Positions 19,831 through 63,350 of a stretch of 64,000 bases of DNA are shown here, in pieces. The stretch spans positions 1 through 64,000 of the forward strand of contig SUXG01000003.1 of the NCBI GenBank assembly GCA_015061085.1, given 5' to 3'. Position 1 is the first letter of the stretch, and the number at the start of each line of letters is the position of its first letter. Source of the stretch: Bacteroidales bacterium (GTDB lineage: Bacteria; Bacteroidota; Bacteroidia; Bacteroidales; Muribaculaceae). The translations under genes and the position numbers were made by a program. Below the pieces are notes generated by a model. It had not been told where the DNA came from, did not search any database, and worked only from the letters and a program-made list of their open reading frames with translations.

Positions 19831-20064
19831 TTATTGTTGCATCTTTTTCACAGATATTTTCTCTTCTGCTTCTCTTGAAAGGTCGTCAAAAAAATTATGA
19901 TTCAATATTATTGAAATTCTCATCAGCTGGTCAGTATCAATGCTGTGTTTTTCAAATATGCGATAAATATTTGTGCGATCGCACGCCAATTTTCGTGCAA
20001 ACCACACAATACTCCTCTCTTGTTTTAGAAATTCTATTTTAATCAGCTCTCCTATCGGAGTCAT
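19831..20064 (-). CDS. Small XRE-type HTH DNA-binding protein
   Basis: WFARKLACDRTNIYRIFEKHSIDTDQLMRISIIL matches an HTH pattern common in Bacteroidetes. Confidence 0.75.
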   Translation of the reverse strand: MTPIGELIKIEFLKQERSIVWFARKLACDRTNIYRIFEKHSIDTDQLMRISIILNHNFFDDLSREAEEKISVKKMQQ

Positions 20065-20114
20065 AAAATACACTCCTTATTATGCCATTAGATTCCCCAG
20101 ATATGGCAATATAT

Positions 20115-20391
20115 AAAAAAGGCGCAGGAATCTGTACTTTCACTTATCCTGCACTTCAGGCTCTCGCATTGCCTATGCCACAAGGATAAGCAACTCAGTT
20201 AGCCCACGCCAGAATGTATATAGCATTAAATTCCAACATCTTTCGACATTGGTAAAACTATAAACATACCGCGAACGCTCCCGGTTGCTTTATCTTCTGT
20301 GACCTATGAATTTGCGAGATTCGAAGTGCTGAAGATAATGCTTGGTAAACGTCTTATTTTATCTACCTCAATAACCCTCCGGCTACTGAGT
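20115..20391 (-). ncRNA. Structured leader/ncRNA, copy 1 (homologous to 29719-30041)
   Basis: Minus-strand stems: P1 20121-20128/20203-20210, P2 20142-20149/20184-20191, P3 20159-20161/20171-20173; U6 tail; promoter core TAACTTTG at 20397-20404. Confidence 0.75.
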
Positions 20392-20396
20392 CGCTA

Positions 20397-20404
20397 CAAA
20401 GTTA
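20397..20404 (-). promoter_or_regulatory. Promoter core TAACTTTG for the copy 1 RNA
   Basis: CAAAGTTA on the plus strand, just upstream of the conserved RNA. Confidence 0.6.
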
Positions 20405-24379: not shown

Positions 24380-24455
24380 CTATTTGCGCTAAGACAATAT
24401 CACCTTATATTATATCTATCTATACTATAGCTACTATAAATACTATCCCGCAAAT

Positions 24456-24509
24456 CTACTGCTTGAAGAGCTCTTTGATTGAGCCAATTGAGCCGAGCAC
24501 GCCGGATAC
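24456..24509 (-). pseudogene. Displaced 3'-terminal fragment of an SPFH/band-7 gene
   Basis: Minus translation VSGVLGSIGSIKELFKQ* versus ASGVLGSIGSIKELFKQ* at the end of the intact gene at 30538. Confidence 0.85.
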
Positions 24510-24532: not shown

Positions 24533-25324
24533 CTAATCAGCTTGCACTCGCTTCGCTATGAGTACCCCAAGCAAATACAACAGATACATCGGTAATGTCA
24601 CAATAACCAAAGTAAATGCATCCGGAGGCGTAATAATCGCCGCTATAACGAGTATCACGATAAACGCATGTTTCTTATAACGTGCCAACATATCACCACT
24701 CACCAAGCCCATCTTAGCCAAGAAGAAACAGATAACCGGCAATTGAAACACAACGCCCATCATAAACGACAACGTTACAAATGTCGAAATATAAGACGAC
24801 AAGGTGATTGTATTTTCAATCGATGAATCTACTTGATAGTTTGCTAAAAACTGAAACGATATAGGAAAAAGCAAAAAATAGCTCAACAAAATACCTATAA
24901 TAAACAGGCCATAGATCGATAGCGCTATTTTGACTGAATGTTTACGCTCATCATCGTATAGAGCCGGCAATATAAACCTAAACAACTCATACACCAAAAA
25001 TGGCGAACCCATCAGCAGTCCTAAATAAAGCGATGTCGAAATGTGAGTCATAAACTGAGCTGACAAATCCGTACTGATAAGCTTAATGTCATACTCCGGA
25101 AATCTAAAATTCCAACCAAGTTCTTTAGCCAACCACTCTATAAATTCAAATGTCACAAAGTGGTTATTCTGTGGAGCAAGCAATATATCGAAAGTAATAT
25201 CCTTAAAGCAGAATATTACGACGGCAAACGTTGCGATTACCCCTATAACTCTGAAGAGCATCTTGCGTAAAACCTCAAGATGCCCTCCAAATGTCATCAT
25301 TCCTTCTTGTGTGGAATCACTCAT
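24533..25324 (-). CDS. tatC: Sec-independent (twin-arginine) translocase TatC
   Basis: 263 aa; MTFGGHLEVLRKMLFRVIGV, LIMGSPFLVYELFRFI-type region, TPPDAFTLVIVTLPMYLLYLLGV. Confidence 0.95.
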   Translation of the reverse strand: MSDSTQEGMMTFGGHLEVLRKMLFRVIGVIATFAVVIFCFKDITFDILLAPQNNHFVTFEFIEWLAKELGWNFRFPEYDIKLISTDLSAQFMTHISTSLYLGLLMGSPFLVYELFRFILPALYDDERKHSVKIALSIYGLFIIGILLSYFLLFPISFQFLANYQVDSSIENTITLSSYISTFVTLSFMMGVVFQLPVICFFLAKMGLVSGDMLARYKKHAFIVILVIAAIITPPDAFTLVIVTLPMYLLYLLGVLIAKRVQAD

Positions 25325-25578
25325 TTGCTTTCTTTATTAGACTCCGCATCGATTTTTACATCCTTTGCAGAATCAAGTTCCTCTGTTTTTTCAGCCACCG
25401 ACTGCTCTTCATCTTTCTTCTCTTCCGGCAGGCCTTCTGCCATTCCTTGCTTAAAGCTTCTGACACCCTGTCCCATGCTACGCATAAGTTCCGGTATCTT
25501 CTTTCCACCAAAGAGCAACAACACTGCGCCACCGATAATGAGCAACTCGGTAGTGCCTATCATACATAATATACTCAT
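25321..25578 (-). CDS. tatA: Twin-arginine translocase subunit TatA/E
   Basis: 85 aa; TTELLIIGGAVLLLFGGKKIPELMRSMGQGVRSFKQGM. Confidence 0.93.
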   Translation of the reverse strand: MSILCMIGTTELLIIGGAVLLLFGGKKIPELMRSMGQGVRSFKQGMAEGLPEEKKDEEQSVAEKTEELDSAKDVKIDAESNKESK

Positions 25579-25590
25579 ATCTCTTCCGTT

Positions 25591-25866
25591 TTAGTCATTA
25601 GTCACCAAAAATATCTCACATGTCTCAAAATTGATTTCCCAATGACCATTTTCAGCAGATTCCCACTGGTAATTACGGGCCATCGTGTCCCACCAATTCT
25701 GGAACTTTGCACCTGTTTCGCCCATATCGGCAACAAGTTTTTCATACAAGTCTTGATTGTCGGCTGTCAAGATTTTAGCCAACTCATTCAGACCGTTTCT
25801 TCTCTCAAAAAGGCTTTGAATATCATTCTTCTCTACCTCTGTCACTTTTCCTACTAATTTTTTCAT
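25591..25866 (-). CDS. Small accessory protein of the CXXX-repeat peptide system (putative)
   Basis: 91 aa between a CXXX peptide and tatA; resembles, from memory, proteins named 'CXXX repeat peptide modification system protein'. Confidence 0.65.
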   Translation of the reverse strand: MKKLVGKVTEVEKNDIQSLFERRNGLNELAKILTADNQDLYEKLVADMGETGAKFQNWWDTMARNYQWESAENGHWEINFETCEIFLVTND

Positions 25867-25867
25867 A

Positions 25868-26221
25868 CTATCTTTTAAACTTTATTGTATCACTTCCAAC
25901 TGATGATGCTTCACAAGTAGCATGACATGAACCATGACAACTTCCTTTGCAAATATCCGAGCACTCATCACATTTACCGGAATATCTACACGTTCCTGCA
26001 CAACCTGAGCATCCGTCTACGCAAAGCCCCTTACACGTTTTAATACAAGTAAAACTACATGTACCCGTACAAGATTGTGAACAGGATGCACTACAGTAAC
26101 CTTCACACGATGTGGGGATATTTGCAATAGTCTTAATTGGATTAGACATAGCCGACAACAGTATCACTGGTAATACTGTTGCCACCCTCTTGAAAAATCT
26201 TCTTCTATCAAATTTACCCAT
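25868..26221 (-). CDS. CXXX-repeat peptide precursor C with twin-arginine leader
   Basis: MGKFDRRRFFKRVATVLPVILL leader, then CEGYCSASCSQSCTGTCSFTCIKTCKGLCVDGC...; 17 Cys, mostly every fourth residue. Confidence 0.85.
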   Translation of the reverse strand: MGKFDRRRFFKRVATVLPVILLSAMSNPIKTIANIPTSCEGYCSASCSQSCTGTCSFTCIKTCKGLCVDGCSGCAGTCRYSGKCDECSDICKGSCHGSCHATCEASSVGSDTIKFKR

Positions 26222-26222
26222 G

Positions 26223-26705
26223 TTACCAATACATATTTCCAAATTTATCTACATACCAATATCCATAACCATTACAAATATTACACAAACGGATATGACC
26301 AGACCCTCCGCATGAGGAGCATGCTCCATCGTAACACCATATGCAATCTTTTAATGTATAGCCATATCCATCACACGCATAACATGATTCATCATTATCA
26401 CATACAGGACAATCTGACTTTATATCTCCATATCCTCCACAATGATAGCAGTCACCAGATCCATGGCACACAGGGCAGTCAACATATCCGCTACCACCAC
26501 ATGAATGACAGCTTACATATTTAAGACTACCCGTTCCTCCGCAGTATTCACATGTACCAACCTGACCCCCAAAGTCATTCATTATGTAGCCTATTCCGTT
26601 CTCACAATAGGGACAATCCATTCCGTTTGATGAATAAGATGGTCCATCATCATTACATGAAACAAGAAAGAATAATACAGCGAAAAACAATAACAATTTT
26701 TTCAT
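26223..26705 (-). CDS. Lipoprotein with ~10 CXXC (DnaJ zinc-finger-like CxxCxGxG) motifs
   Basis: Lipobox FFLVSCND; CEYCGGTG, CHSCGGSG, CPVCHGSG, CYHCGGYG etc.; ATGA overlap with the upstream gene at 26702-26705. Confidence 0.85.
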   Translation of the reverse strand: MKKLLLFFAVLFFLVSCNDDGPSYSSNGMDCPYCENGIGYIMNDFGGQVGTCEYCGGTGSLKYVSCHSCGGSGYVDCPVCHGSGDCYHCGGYGDIKSDCPVCDNDESCYACDGYGYTLKDCIWCYDGACSSCGGSGHIRLCNICNGYGYWYVDKFGNMYW

Positions 26706-27667
26706 TGCCATTCTTCTTTATTTTCAAATGGGTCTAAATATGCGATCTCTTTTATTTCAATCTCAGGCATAAACACGCCATGTTTGCGAATATTCTGCAA
26801 GAGATTGCGACTTACGTTTCGCTCTGTGTGAGCCACTATACACTGTTCATGGCTTGGGGTATTAACTTCAAGCGTCATCTTGCGATTAAGCCAAACGCAA
26901 CGCTTACATTGGTTGGCATCACAATTGCGACATATCGGAGCATGCGATAACTTGTAAAGCTGTGGATTTCTGACATTTAATCCCGATTTCAAATCTCCAA
27001 TGCTCTGCGCCTTATTCTCAATTGTTGTTGCAGTTTCTGCTTGATAGAACGCAGGACAAACATAGAACTTACCATCAGATACCAACGTGATATTCTCATC
27101 TCCGGCATTACAATTGTTCATTGCAGAGAGCATCATACGATCGGTAAGCAAATTGAATTGCACTGCATGACATTTCGTATATTCAGATTCAACCACTTCC
27201 GATAAATCAGACAGCAATGCTTGATATGTTTGTAAATCATCATCTGAGAACGTCTCCACATCGGTAATCACCACGTTCAATCGCTCCAATTTCTCTAAGA
27301 ATGGTATCAAACACTTATAGTTAGCAAACAATTCATCCTTCTGAACTCGGAATACAACAGCCGATGCGCCCTGATATTCCTCCGGATTTTCATCAGTCAA
27401 TCCATCGACAACCACGACATCAGCATCCTTTGTCAACGATGCAGGCACTATATTGGCATGGTCTATCGAATGAATTGCGTCCTTGTATTCTTGTGGCAAT
27501 TCATAATCTGGATAGACAAACTGAATCATTAGATTTTGCTTCATTGCAAAGAGAATACCAGCCTGCAAATCCTCCAATGCAATTAATTTACGCTCAGTCT
27601 TCTGATTTTCATAATGACAATATGACACGCTCGTATCATCTAATAAAACTACAAGATATTTCAGCAT
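26702..27667 (-). CDS. Putative CXXX-repeat peptide maturase: SPASM-like Cys tail, no CX3CX2C radical-SAM motif
   Basis: 321 aa; GKFYVCPAFY...CRNCDANQCKRCVWLNRKMTLEVNTPSHEQC; no CxxxCxxC in the N-terminal half. Confidence 0.75.
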   Translation of the reverse strand: MLKYLVVLLDDTSVSYCHYENQKTERKLIALEDLQAGILFAMKQNLMIQFVYPDYELPQEYKDAIHSIDHANIVPASLTKDADVVVVDGLTDENPEEYQGASAVVFRVQKDELFANYKCLIPFLEKLERLNVVITDVETFSDDDLQTYQALLSDLSEVVESEYTKCHAVQFNLLTDRMMLSAMNNCNAGDENITLVSDGKFYVCPAFYQAETATTIENKAQSIGDLKSGLNVRNPQLYKLSHAPICRNCDANQCKRCVWLNRKMTLEVNTPSHEQCIVAHTERNVSRNLLQNIRKHGVFMPEIEIKEIAYLDPFENKEEWQ

Positions 27668-27671
27668 AGCA

Positions 27672-28928
27672 TCAACATATTACATCGTTTGACTTCTTTT
27701 TATTGCTCTCAAATGCTTCTCGTTCACCTTCAAGTTCGAGTTTGCGATAGAGTTTGTTCCAATAGTAGTTATTGGCACGAACACGAGCCTTGTGCATCTT
27801 GCATATAGCAGTTGAGCGTTGATAGATGGTCGGAGTCTCAGCCGCATCATAGTTTTCACCTTGACACCAAGCGCAACCACTACCTACCTCGCAATCTATA
27901 CACTCTTGTGTTGACTGAGTGCAACGATCAAGTGTCAAGAATGGGCGAAGCTTATTCTTATCAATACCATCACGCACATTACCGATAATCCAAGCCTTTT
28001 TATCACGCAAAGAGTATTGTGCAAAACGAGTACAAGGATAGAAATTACCTGCTGCATCTACCGACAACATTTTACCTGCACCACACCAATTCTGATTTTC
28101 AAGAACACAATCGAGAGGTTTACCCATGTTTTCAGTAAAGAACGAGCAAGCGTTATTTTCGTAAAGTTTGCCGTCAATGATAGCATCAGCAAGTTGCATC
28201 AACTGCTCCTCAAATTTCACATCATCACCTTCTGTCCACACATCCTCAAAAACGCAATTGATATTAACCTCATGGATACCAAGATCAAACAGGTGCAATA
28301 CGCTTTCCTTTATATATGGTATATCCGCACTACTGATTGTTACCTTGGTACCTGCATTTGGGAATTGACTTAACCACAATGGAATATTTCGTACAACATC
28401 TTTGTAAGACCCTTTCTCGTCCTCAGGCGCCGGTGCTATACCGGCTTCCATCTCAGGCGTCTTATAGATGCGATTGAGGTCGTGTTTTCGTTCTGTGCCA
28501 TCGATTGTAATACCAATAGACAGATGATCACGATTTTTCGCTATAAATCGTTGAACCTTATCCTCATGGTAATTAATGCCATTTGTAGAGAACGAAAAAC
28601 GATAGGAATTAAACCAATGGTGATTGCGTCTAAAAAGCTCCACCTTAATATAGTCACATATCTTATCAATAAGGTCTATTTCAAGGAATGGCTCTCCACC
28701 GATAAAATCCCATATTACAGACTCCTCACGAAAGTCCTCCTCATGGTCGAGAATGTAGTCAATTGCTTGCTTTGCTACATTCCACGACATTCGCTCCTTG
28801 ATGTTTTTACCCACCAAGTAACAATACTTGCAAGCAAGCTGGCAATCCTTAGTAACAATAAACGTAATATTTTTGGCTATTCCGGATTGCCAAGCTTCAC
28901 TATTTGTTTTAATACTCATTTTTAGCAC
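27672..28928 (-). CDS. Radical SAM/SPASM peptide maturase (CXXX-repeat target type)
   Basis: 418 aa; CQLACKYC cluster; IGGEPFLE; SPASM CGAGKMLSVDAAGNFYPCTRF...CIDCEVGSGCAWC. Confidence 0.9.
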   Translation of the reverse strand: MLKMSIKTNSEAWQSGIAKNITFIVTKDCQLACKYCYLVGKNIKERMSWNVAKQAIDYILDHEEDFREESVIWDFIGGEPFLEIDLIDKICDYIKVELFRRNHHWFNSYRFSFSTNGINYHEDKVQRFIAKNRDHLSIGITIDGTERKHDLNRIYKTPEMEAGIAPAPEDEKGSYKDVVRNIPLWLSQFPNAGTKVTISSADIPYIKESVLHLFDLGIHEVNINCVFEDVWTEGDDVKFEEQLMQLADAIIDGKLYENNACSFFTENMGKPLDCVLENQNWCGAGKMLSVDAAGNFYPCTRFAQYSLRDKKAWIIGNVRDGIDKNKLRPFLTLDRCTQSTQECIDCEVGSGCAWCQGENYDAAETPTIYQRSTAICKMHKARVRANNYYWNKLYRKLELEGEREAFESNKKKSNDVIC

Positions 28929-29009
28929 GAATTTAAACCTATTAATGCAAGTTTCATTTATTAACTATTATTACAAAATAGATTTTAGTCTTTACTCATT
29001 ACAATTGAA

Positions 29010-29336
29010 TTATAAATATGCACTACTTCCGCATCCTGTGTAACAAGTTCCGTCACAACCACCTCCGCAACTTCTTTCACAGCCACCAAGACAACTTCTA
29101 GCACATCCACCAGAACAGCTATAATCACATCCTCCACAACCGTTCTTACATCCACCGTAACATGAACTATCACACCCCCACTTGCAACCATAGTCACAAT
29201 AAGATGTTGCTTTACTTTCATGAGATTTTGCCACAAACGGCAATTGAGTCAATGCAATAGCACCAAAAATTGGAAGAGCCTTTTTGACTGCACTTTTGAA
29301 GAATTCCCTTCTACTTTGTATTTTATTGTCTTTCAT
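29010..29336 (-). CDS. CXXX-repeat peptide precursor B with Tat leader
   Basis: MKDNKIQSRREFFKSAVKKALPIFGAIALTQLP leader; CDYGCKWGCDSSCYGGCKNGCGGCDYSCSGGC... Confidence 0.88.
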   Translation of the reverse strand: MKDNKIQSRREFFKSAVKKALPIFGAIALTQLPFVAKSHESKATSYCDYGCKWGCDSSCYGGCKNGCGGCDYSCSGGCARSCLGGCERSCGGGCDGTCYTGCGSSAYL

Positions 29337-29363
29337 ACTATCCAGTTATCTATTTATTAATAT

Positions 29364-29669
29364 TTAATATGATGATCCGCCGGTACATTTATTTTGACAT
29401 GTATTTTTGCATGTACTTCTACATGATGACTTGCATCCCGAGCTACATTCATATTTACATGCGCCTTTACATTCTCCATAGCATGAACCTTTACATGAAG
29501 CCATACATGTTCCATGGCACCCATTACAACCCATCTCGACTTTCGATGCTGTAATATCAAGAGGTAGATTTGCTAATGCGATAACGCCAAGGATTGGGAG
29601 CGCTTTTTTAGCCGCACTTTTGAAGAATTCGCGTCTTGACTGAACTTCTTCCTTTTTGTTTTCTTTCAT
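29364..29669 (-). CDS. CXXX-repeat peptide precursor A with Tat leader
   Basis: MKENKKEEVQSRREFFKSAAKKALPILGVIALANLP leader; CNGCHGTCMASCKGSCYGECKGACKYEC...; start placed at the internal Met (the longer ORF runs into the upstream RNA). Confidence 0.88.
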   Translation of the reverse strand: MKENKKEEVQSRREFFKSAAKKALPILGVIALANLPLDITASKVEMGCNGCHGTCMASCKGSCYGECKGACKYECSSGCKSSCRSTCKNTCQNKCTGGSSY

Positions 29670-29718
29670 GATTAATAAAGAGTTTTTTTCGATAGGCTCC
29701 CCATATCGGTAACACAAT

Positions 29719-30041
29719 AAAAAAGACGTGGGAGTCTGTACTTCTTCGCTTATCCCACGCTCAGGCCTTCGCATTGCCACCCACAAGGATAAGCAACTCA
29801 GCTAGCCCACGTCAGGATACGATTATAGACGGACACACCACGCACTGCGCAATGATTCGTATATTTTCATATACCATTAATGGACGCTTCCGTTGCTATT
29901 TCTTCCTGTGGTTCAAAGTTGCGAAGTTTGAGCGTAGAAGAAAACGCTTTGGTAAACGTCTTTTTAAAACAATTAAACACCTTAGATTCAGACTATTATC
30001 TTTATCCAAAGTCCCACCCACACACCCTCCGGTCCGCGAGC
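29719..30041 (-). ncRNA. Structured leader/ncRNA, copy 2 (homologous to 20115-20391)
   Basis: P1 29725-29732/29806-29813, P2 29748-29755/29787-29794, P3 29764-29766/29776-29778; U6 tail; conserved GTTTACCAAAG, CGGAGGGT and GAGTTGCTTATCCTTGTGG. Confidence 0.77.
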
Positions 30042-30046
30042 TATCG

Positions 30047-30054
30047 CAAATTTA
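30047..30054 (-). promoter_or_regulatory. Promoter core TAAATTTG for the copy 2 RNA and peptide operon
   Basis: TAnnTTTG with TTG about 20 nt upstream on the minus strand. Confidence 0.6.
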
Positions 30055-30504: not shown

Positions 30505-30537
30505 GAAGCCTAAACGTATTATGAAAAAACTAAAAAT

Positions 30538-31503
30538 TTACTGTTTGAAAAGCTCTTTGATTGAGCCGATTGAGCCAAGCACACCAGAGGCTTCGTATGG
30601 CACATAGACAGTCTTGTTGTCTTGACCTGAAGTCATCTCTTTGAGCGTCTCGATGTATTTCATTGCGAGCATGTAGGTCGCAGGGTCAGTCTGCGATTCC
30701 TTGATGGCTTCAGCGACGCGACGTATTGCTTCTGCTTCAGCCTCTGCCACAAGCACCTTAGCGCGTGATTCACCTTCGGCTCTTAAGATTTCAGCTTGCT
30801 TGATAGCTTCTGCCTGGTTGATTTGTGATTGTTTTTCACCTTCAGAACGCAGAATCAAAGATTTCTTTTCACCCTCTGCGTTAAGGATTTCAGCACGACG
30901 ATTACGCTCTGCCTGCATCTGCTTTTCCATAGCTACGCGCACACTTTCCGGAGGCGTAATATCTTGAAGTTCAACGCGATTAACCTTTACACCCCACTTG
31001 TTGGTAGCTTCGTCAAGGATAGCTTGTAACTTAGAGTTGATGGTGTCGCGTGATGTGAGCGTTTCATCGAGTTCGAGTTCACCGATTACGTTACGAAGCG
31101 ATGTTTGCGTCAACTTTTCGATAGCGTTAGGGAGGTTTTCGATTTCATAGACCGACTTTTTAGGATCGACGATTTGGAAGTATATCAAAGCGTTGATTTC
31201 GGTGGTCACGTTATCCTTGGTGATCACTTGCTGAGAAGGGAAGTCATAGACTTGCTCACGAAGGTCGATTACAGAAGTCGATACGATACGCGCATAGTTG
31301 CCCACCATACTGCGAGTATAGACCATCTTAGGTTTATCGATAAACGGCCAAATGATATTCAATCCAGGAGGCAGAACAGCATGGAAGCGACCGAGACGCT
31401 CGATGACGCGTGTTTCCGACTGTGGCACCACCTTTACTCCGGCAGATACCAATACAATCACTATCAAAGCCAAAAGACCTAAAAAAATCATTGAACTTGT
31501 CAT
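30538..31503 (-). CDS. SPFH/band 7 (stomatin/QmcA-like) membrane protein
   Basis: 321 aa; VVPQSETRVIERLGRFHAVLPPGLNIIWPFIDKP; ITPPESVRVAMEKQMQAERNRRAEIL. Confidence 0.95.
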   Translation of the reverse strand: MTSSMIFLGLLALIVIVLVSAGVKVVPQSETRVIERLGRFHAVLPPGLNIIWPFIDKPKMVYTRSMVGNYARIVSTSVIDLREQVYDFPSQQVITKDNVTTEINALIYFQIVDPKKSVYEIENLPNAIEKLTQTSLRNVIGELELDETLTSRDTINSKLQAILDEATNKWGVKVNRVELQDITPPESVRVAMEKQMQAERNRRAEILNAEGEKKSLILRSEGEKQSQINQAEAIKQAEILRAEGESRAKVLVAEAEAEAIRRVAEAIKESQTDPATYMLAMKYIETLKEMTSGQDNKTVYVPYEASGVLGSIGSIKELFKQ

Positions 31504-32165: not shown

Positions 32166-32170
32166 CAGTG

Positions 32171-32237
32171 AGTTTTTCATGGTATTAGATTTTAAGGTTA
32201 ACATTAGATTGGTTGTCGAGAGACAATCAATTTTTTA
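32171..32237 (+). ncRNA. Candidate short RNA (~65 nt)
   Basis: Promoter core at 32158-32165; terminator ATTGGTTGTC-GAGA-GACAATCAAT + TTTTTT (32208-32236). Confidence 0.5.
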
Positions 32238-32379
32238 TTTATATTCCAACCCTCAATTTAAATCCCTATCGTTTTGTGGCATCATATTATAAAGGATAGC
32301 ATGGTGTTGTACCCTCCCTAAAACAAGAAACAAAAATCGACCGTCCTGACTAACAAGACGATCGAAACAAATCTTATGG

Positions 32380-62957: not shown

Positions 62958-63350
62958 TTATTTCTTTTCACACTGCTTTTTGCATTCTTGCTTCTTAGCG
63001 TCGCATTGTTTCTTGCAAGCTTGTTTTGGCTGAACTTTTGCACGCTTATCGCACTTTGTCAACTTGCAATCTTTTTTCTTTGCATCGCATTGCTTCTTGC
63101 AGTCTTGTTTCTGCTTATCGCATTGCTTCTTGCATTCTTGCTTCTTAGCGTCGCATTGCTTCTTGCAAGCTTCTTTGTTTTGCTTACACTCTTTCTTGCA
63201 ATCTTTGCAATCCTTAGTGCATTCTTTCTTGCATTCTACTTTTTCACATTTTGCTTTCTGACATTGCTTTTCACATTGCTTTTGAGTTTGAGCAACACTA
63301 ACTGTTGCCATTAATACTAAAGCAAAAAATAATACTGTTAATTTTTTCAT
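62958..63350 (-). CDS. Secreted Lys/Cys-rich repeat protein
   Basis: 130 aa; signal peptide MKKLTVLFFALVLMATVSVAQ; repeated CKKQCDAKKQE (11-residue period). Confidence 0.8.
   Translation of the reverse strand: MKKLTVLFFALVLMATVSVAQTQKQCEKQCQKAKCEKVECKKECTKDCKDCKKECKQNKEACKKQCDAKKQECKKQCDKQKQDCKKQCDAKKKDCKLTKCDKRAKVQPKQACKKQCDAKKQECKKQCEKK

Follow-up and report, generated by a model that had tools for sequence, protein, structure and literature searches.

A pseudoknotted leader RNA family of Bacteroidales proposed to act as a strand-exchange terminator switch

The minus strand of a contig from a Bacteroidales bacterium (Muribaculaceae; GCA_015061085.1, SUXG01000003.1) carries at about 29719-30054 a large structured RNA that recurs across the order. 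We consider it probable that this RNA is a cis-acting regulatory leader, representing a new attenuator- or riboswitch-like class whose terminator is switched by strand exchange. A promoter motif lies at the 5' end of most copies, a gene on the same strand follows most of them and the structure between the two covaries, as expected of a putative cis-regulatory leader. The window analysed here is positions 1-64,000 of the contig. A sequence-only reading had described a promoter core, three stems (P1, P2 and P3) and a terminal U-run, and all were found where it had put them when the minus strand was read and mapped. The parts of the window copy, together with features found in the present analysis, are as follows.

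30047-30054, minus strand: promoter core TAAATTTG, Bacteroidetes type, at the 5' end of the element (read directly and mapped)
30035-30043, minus strand: 5' competitor strand UAGCUCGCG; its potential partner, CGUGGGCUA, includes 6 nt of the P1 5' strand
29952-29960, minus strand: P4 5' strand GACGUUUAC, its first bases shared with a local hairpin, HP0
29943-29948, minus strand: HP0 partner strand of the first bases of the P4 5' strand
29883-29891, minus strand: P4 3' strand
29936-29942, minus strand: P5 5' strand, partner at 29899-29906
29930-29935, minus strand: PX 5' strand ACGCUC, long-range partner GAGCGU at 29757-29762
29920-29926, minus strand: K1 5' strand CUUCGCA, located in the core hairpin's apical loop
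29767-29773, minus strand: K1 3' strand UGCGAAG, inside the P3 loop
29907-29913, minus strand: K2 5' strand AACCACA, long-range partner UGUGG at 29781-29785
29806-29813, minus strand: P1 5' strand (P1a) GACGUGGG
29725-29732, minus strand: P1 3' strand (P1b) CCCACGUC
29787-29796 with 29746-29755, minus strand: P2; inside it lie the K2 3' strand, the hairpin of P3 and the PX 3' strand
29776-29779 with 29763-29766, minus strand: P3, with UGCGAAG in its loop
29718-29724, minus strand: U-run following P1, terminator-like together with it
29691-29707, minus strand: hairpin 3' of the U-run (from the fold and a swap test)
29697-29702 with 29730-29736, minus strand: K3, hairpin loop GGGGAG with GACUCCC, overlapping the P1 3' strand
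29669, minus strand: ATG of pepA (gene 29364-29669), a CXXX-repeat radical-SAM target precursor (TIGR04117)
27672-28928, minus strand: radical SAM peptide maturase of the downstream operon (TIGR04115, 634 bits)
20113-20404, minus strand: second copy of the RNA; the gene that follows it encodes an HTH-like protein of 77 aa (19831-20064)

Fold and covariation across the family

Folding energies were compared with dinucleotide shuffles. The 327-nt RNA folded better than 100 of 100 shuffles (z = -4.41), and the 145-nt 3' part by itself had an unremarkable folding energy (z = -1.44). A covariance model of the 3' domain gave exactly two strong matches in the window, at 20113-20213 (E 1e-20) and 29717-29816 (E 8e-20), so the earlier designation of the element as a second copy was correct. 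Covariation was then assessed on an alignment of 149 distinct copies in which every column pair was scored with no prior structure given. The top pairs of this unprompted scan belonged to PX, K1, K2, P5, P2, P1 and one 5' hairpin. The highest score went to PX, which joins the strand 5' of the core hairpin to the strand 3' of P3, while K2 joins the strand 3' of the core hairpin to the strand 5' of P3. These long-range helices, which connect the P3 loop and the P2/P3 junctions with the 5' core, had been missed by the sequence-only reading.

Pairs were counted on a separate 103-sequence MAFFT alignment of divergent copies. Pair frequencies backed the scanned helices, with up to six well-populated pair types at one position. 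In the 60-pair structure 90.9% of cells were paired, and double changes occurred at 43 pairs; sliding the partners by 1-3 columns lowered pairing to 52% or less. Double-changed cells numbered 924 as compared to 292 in shuffles, and none of 500 shuffles reached the observed level. PX had double changes at all 8 of its pairs and K2 at all 7. K1 was paired in 99.4% of cells with double changes at 4 pairs, and its sequence varied from CUUCGC/GCGAAG to CUCGC/GCGAG or to unrelated strands such as CCUGGAA/UUCCAGG with complementarity always kept. P4 was supported and HP0 covaried as well, although one 5' strand serves both, suggesting that they are alternative states. Together these data support a nine-helix pseudoknotted fold, with strong covariation over the 103 divergent copies. 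In it PX, K1 and K2 are shown by comparison to be three long-range helices that dock the 5' core (P4, P5 and a hairpin) onto the 3' domain closed by P1.

Distribution and downstream genes

The window was searched with Rfam 15 (4227 models, including Bacteroidales-1, 6S-Flavo, tmRNA, cobalamin and other riboswitches). At gathering thresholds the whole window returned only FopS (32170-32240) and two tRNAs, none over the element. With E up to 10 the element itself drew only chance-level eukaryotic and unrelated models, and five related loci searched with E up to 5 gave nothing convincing at the element. A known RNA family was rejected on these searches at gathering thresholds and permissive E-values, and the match to a known housekeeping RNA that would have spoken against the earlier reading did not appear.

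A DNA search found three similar stretches in the element's own genome and more among relatives. Covariance model R1, representing the 3' domain and built from 14 sequences, detected 9 copies in the same genome. Among the 295 Bacteroidales genomes searched, 64 had copies (38 of 178 genera), with up to 10 per genome. When R1 was run on samples of the class and the phylum, matches were confined to Bacteroidales with none outside the order, which indicates that the model is specific. Named carriers were Bacteroides bouchesdurhonensis (from a pattern scan) and Xylanibacter rarus, Prevotellamassilia timonensis and Segatella hominis (from the locus list); others were many gut and rumen MAGs of Prevotella, Muribaculaceae, Parabacteroides, Paraprevotella, Phocaeicola and Odoribacter. 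Viral collections yielded only four matches (2 IMG/VR contigs and 2 unannotated faecal phage fragments) and a plasmid search found no copy; a phage or plasmid element was rejected on these counts.

The genes around the element were examined at 94 loci. An ORF of at least 80 aa on the same strand started no more than 200 nt downstream at 85 of them, a converging ORF ended there at 13, and the upstream side had no strand bias (36 versus 39). The median distance from element to ATG was 64 nt. Like the gap between the U-run and the pepA ATG, which had been described as lacking TAnnTTTG and does lack it, the gaps in general were not enriched for this promoter motif (7 of 141, with 7.5 expected from shuffles). 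Given a leader at the start of the transcription unit and a terminator-like P1 and U-run, transcription probably reaches the gene by readthrough. The same observations bear on a free-standing, trans-acting sRNA that would end at the U-run while the downstream gene used its own promoter. Such an sRNA would account for the element's own promoter, terminator-like end, multiple copies and unrelated downstream genes, but not for the nearby same-strand genes or the missing excess of promoter motifs in the gap, and we regard it as improbable as the main explanation. A terminated leader can nevertheless coexist with an sRNA role.

The downstream genes themselves were diverse. A scan of 129 downstream proteins matched 12 BspA-type LRR, 6 CXXX radical-SAM target and 3 PEGA proteins, with further matches to LytTR, DUF3575, restriction and other families. 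By eye, seven were small HTH-like proteins that closely resemble one another, and lipoprotein or signal sequences were seen in many of the others. These proportions rest in part on a motif scan and do not amount to an unbiased census. The mixture of surface proteins, lipoproteins, small HTH proteins and CXXX precursors indicates that the RNA is not peptide-specific, and as the genes have no common pathway they suggest no ligand. The surface genes raised the idea of c-di-GMP made by GGDEF enzymes, which is unlikely as these enzymes are nearly absent from carriers (12 of the 295 genomes had GGDEF, and only one of those 12 had the RNA). An RNA subtype tied to the downstream gene was rejected as well: the RNA tree was discordant with the downstream gene, and the RNAs preceding HTH or CXXX genes did not form one clade.

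This independence from the downstream gene, the several diverged copies per genome, and the size and multi-pseudoknot fold are what a ribozyme or mobile RNA element lying before genes by chance would show. We give that explanation very little credence, as copies begin at a promoter and stop before a gene, no intron or ribozyme family was matched, and the copies are old and diverged with none on plasmids and four matches in viral collections.

The window copy precedes a complete CXXX-repeat RiPP operon (24533-29669, minus strand), which was tested for its gene families in the window, while operons at other loci were judged by eye. It encodes two tandem precursors and a third at 25868-26242, the TIGR04115 and TIGR04119 maturases, TIGR04116, TatA and TatC. 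PepA matched TIGR04117 with E 7.9e-12 and 45 bits (cut-off 50) and has a twin-arginine-like N-terminus, SRREFFK; with TatA and TatC in the operon, the SRREFFK stretch at the N-termini of the precursors resembles a Tat signal. The RNA-led CXXX operons had a common layout of precursor, TIGR04115, TIGR04119, TIGR04116 and, where the locus reached, TatA/TatC. This layout fits a modified peptide exported by Tat. The element had been proposed as an attenuating leader of this peptide operon. A leader with readthrough remains likely, from the 85 loci, the lack of a promoter-motif excess in the gap and the pairings described below, and a tie to this operon in particular is not supported: very diverse genes follow the RNA, CXXX precursors follow only 6 of 129 copies, and the RNA lay upstream in 1 of 8 TIGR04115 loci sampled. 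A regulator specific to the peptide operon was therefore rejected.

Also within the operon, 26223-26711 (minus strand) encodes a 162-aa lipoprotein-like protein that carries zinc-binding CXXCXGXG repeats of the DnaJ type. Two copies of a 55-bp direct repeat, 6 kb apart and 87% identical, lie at 24452-24506, beyond tatC, and at 30534-30588, where the repeat forms the 3' end of a stomatin-like gene (30538-31503). It looks as if the CXXX operon with its leader had been inserted beside the stomatin-like gene.

The 3' end and the competing 5' strand

P1 covaried in the 103-sequence alignment, and at least 5 U were present among the 10 nt 3' of P1 in 145 of 149 copies. From this arrangement we infer that P1 and the U-run form an intrinsic terminator. 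At the other end of the element TAnnTTTG was present in 128 of the 149 aligned copies. P1 closes a domain of about 75 nt, which is unusual in terminators and counts against the attenuator reading.

A hairpin was found 10-60 nt 3' of P1 with a loop complementary to GANUCCC, a motif that overlaps the first bases of the P1 3' strand. This pairing (K3) was evaluated by swapping partners between loci, and a score of at least 14 was reached by 46% of own pairs and 16% of swapped pairs (p = 1.2e-19). The result was weak with a loose scoring window and clear when limited to the strand adjoining P1. The RNA had been described as ending at its terminator; P1 and the U-run are indeed terminator-like, but conserved structure continues past the U-run. 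Selection on a K3 partner beyond this point implies a role for transcripts that read through, and it speaks against an sRNA that simply ends at the U-run. At some loci, for example L168, L154 and L138, a short ORF begins directly after the U-run and crosses the K3 hairpin, so translation could unfold the hairpin.

Further long-range pairing was sought with a segment-swapping scan between loci, in which pairing of the 5' end with the P1a/J1-2 segment stood out. A strong helix of the 5' strand with P1a or J1/2 was present in 76 of 149 copies (51%) as compared to 16% of swapped and 4.6% of shuffled sequences (p = 3e-10; for duplex energies p = 1.5e-6). Two registers were seen. In the first, found in 31 of the 76 strong copies, the 5' strand mimics the P1 3' strand and covers 5 or more of the 8 bases in P1a. 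In the second (45 of 76) it pairs mainly with the segment just 3' of P1a and takes few P1 bases, and this helix could be compatible with most of P1. As only the 31 copies cover P1a to this extent, a strict antiterminator may not be family-wide. In the window copy, one of the 31, the 5' strand covers 6 of 8 P1a bases, although with G-U pairs in the helix, and the competing duplexes are nearly equal in energy (-15.2 kcal/mol for the 5' strand and -15.7 kcal/mol for P1). At L053, a locus in the same genome, joint changes are seen in P1a, in P1b and in the 5' strand (CGGCGTGAAG / CTTCACG / CTTCACGCCGA).

The K3 partner past the U-run and the 5' strand competing for P1a or J1/2 favor a switchable leader over a free sRNA. 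In the mechanism we propose, RNA polymerase would start at the TAnnTTTG promoter and produce an RNA of about 330 nt, in which the 5' core (P4, P5 and hairpin) would dock on the P2/P3 domain through PX, K1 and K2. In the OFF state P1a and P1b would be closed and with the U-run would act as an intrinsic terminator. In the ON state the 5'-end strand would hold P1a or the adjoining segment, leaving P1 open so that polymerase could read into the gene, and the freed P1b could pair with the hairpin loop past the U-run to form K3. The docked core would be the probable sensor, and a signal that stabilises or breaks it would set the ON/OFF balance. A small molecule is our leading guess for this signal, and a protein or another RNA could also serve. 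Different accessory genes may each have acquired the leader, here the CXXX RiPP operon. The base pairing in this scheme is shown by comparing copies; that the RNA terminates, switches and responds to a signal is what we infer.

Chief among the rivals is a leader with one static pseudoknot that acts after transcription, on ribosome access or mRNA stability, with the U-run as a linker. The K3 5' strand is followed by the P1 3' strand, a U-rich linker and the K3 3' strand, an order expected of a pseudoknot. Moreover, K3 covaries, many copies have a 5' helix compatible with P1, and the ATG is near. However, 145 of 149 copies retain a GC-rich stem with a U-run immediately after it, K3 draws bases from P1, and the 5' strand of 31 copies takes up most of P1a. 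On balance we think this static arrangement unlikely and prefer the strand-exchange switch. A broader form of the switch, which we put forward only tentatively, is a new class of large Bacteroidales riboswitches, with three docking helices and a strand-exchange platform (the 5' strand, the P1 strands and the downstream loop), that would sense a common cellular signal and pass it to scattered genes. These genes encode surface proteins, lipoproteins and small regulators or belong to RiPP operons.

Relation to known RNAs

Like riboswitches and attenuators, the element is a 5' leader with competing pairings and a gene immediately 3'. The closest parallel is the HMP-PP (thiS) riboswitch, described as a terminator-embedded aptamer (PMC6478431), in which the terminator-like stem likewise closes part of the sensor domain. 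Unlike HMP-PP, the element is about 330 nt with three long-range helices and conserved pairing 3' of the U-run, precedes diverse non-metabolic genes, and has no sequence or model match. Bacteroidales-1 RNA (RF01693) and other Bacteroidetes motifs (Weinberg et al. 2010, PMC2864571) are similarly restricted to Bacteroidales, but cmscan matched none of them to the element even at E 10.

A literature search found no description of the element, apart from a possible overlap with HMP2_1881. This is a 108-bp predicted motif, mostly from Bacteroidetes, found near radical SAM domains and expressed in 13 of 13 instances (Fremin & Bhatt 2021, PMC8040213). Compared by description only, its length is near that of the 3' domain, and its taxon and neighbours fit, so HMP2_1881 may be a fragment of the element, namely the 3' domain. 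Where that paper describes it, HMP2_1881 is an expressed candidate presented without full fold, pseudoknots or mechanism (PMC8040213). If the two are the same, expression is already supported and the motif was partly predicted, and the full fold and the switch elements would still be new.

Large, intricate and conserved RNAs found by comparative genomics, as the element was, include OLE, GOLLD and ROOL. Unlike these, the element is a leader running from promoter to gene, with up to about ten copies per genome. All three are covered by Rfam, and none gave a match. If our reading is true, the family would constitute a dispersed RNA regulon in about one fifth of sampled Bacteroidales genomes, outside Rfam, in bacteria that dominate gut and rumen and about whose riboregulation little is known. 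Its target genes would already be at hand for a search for the signal, and the complex RNA would lend itself to structure determination.

Two other features of the window were recorded. The FopS match (RF04319, plus strand) belongs to a Bacteroidetes paralogous-sRNA family and lies near a tRNA-Arg gene. At 62958-63350 (minus strand) a 130-aa secreted-looking protein is built of 11-residue repeats (CKKQCDAKKQE), forming a periodic peptide rich in Lys and Cys.
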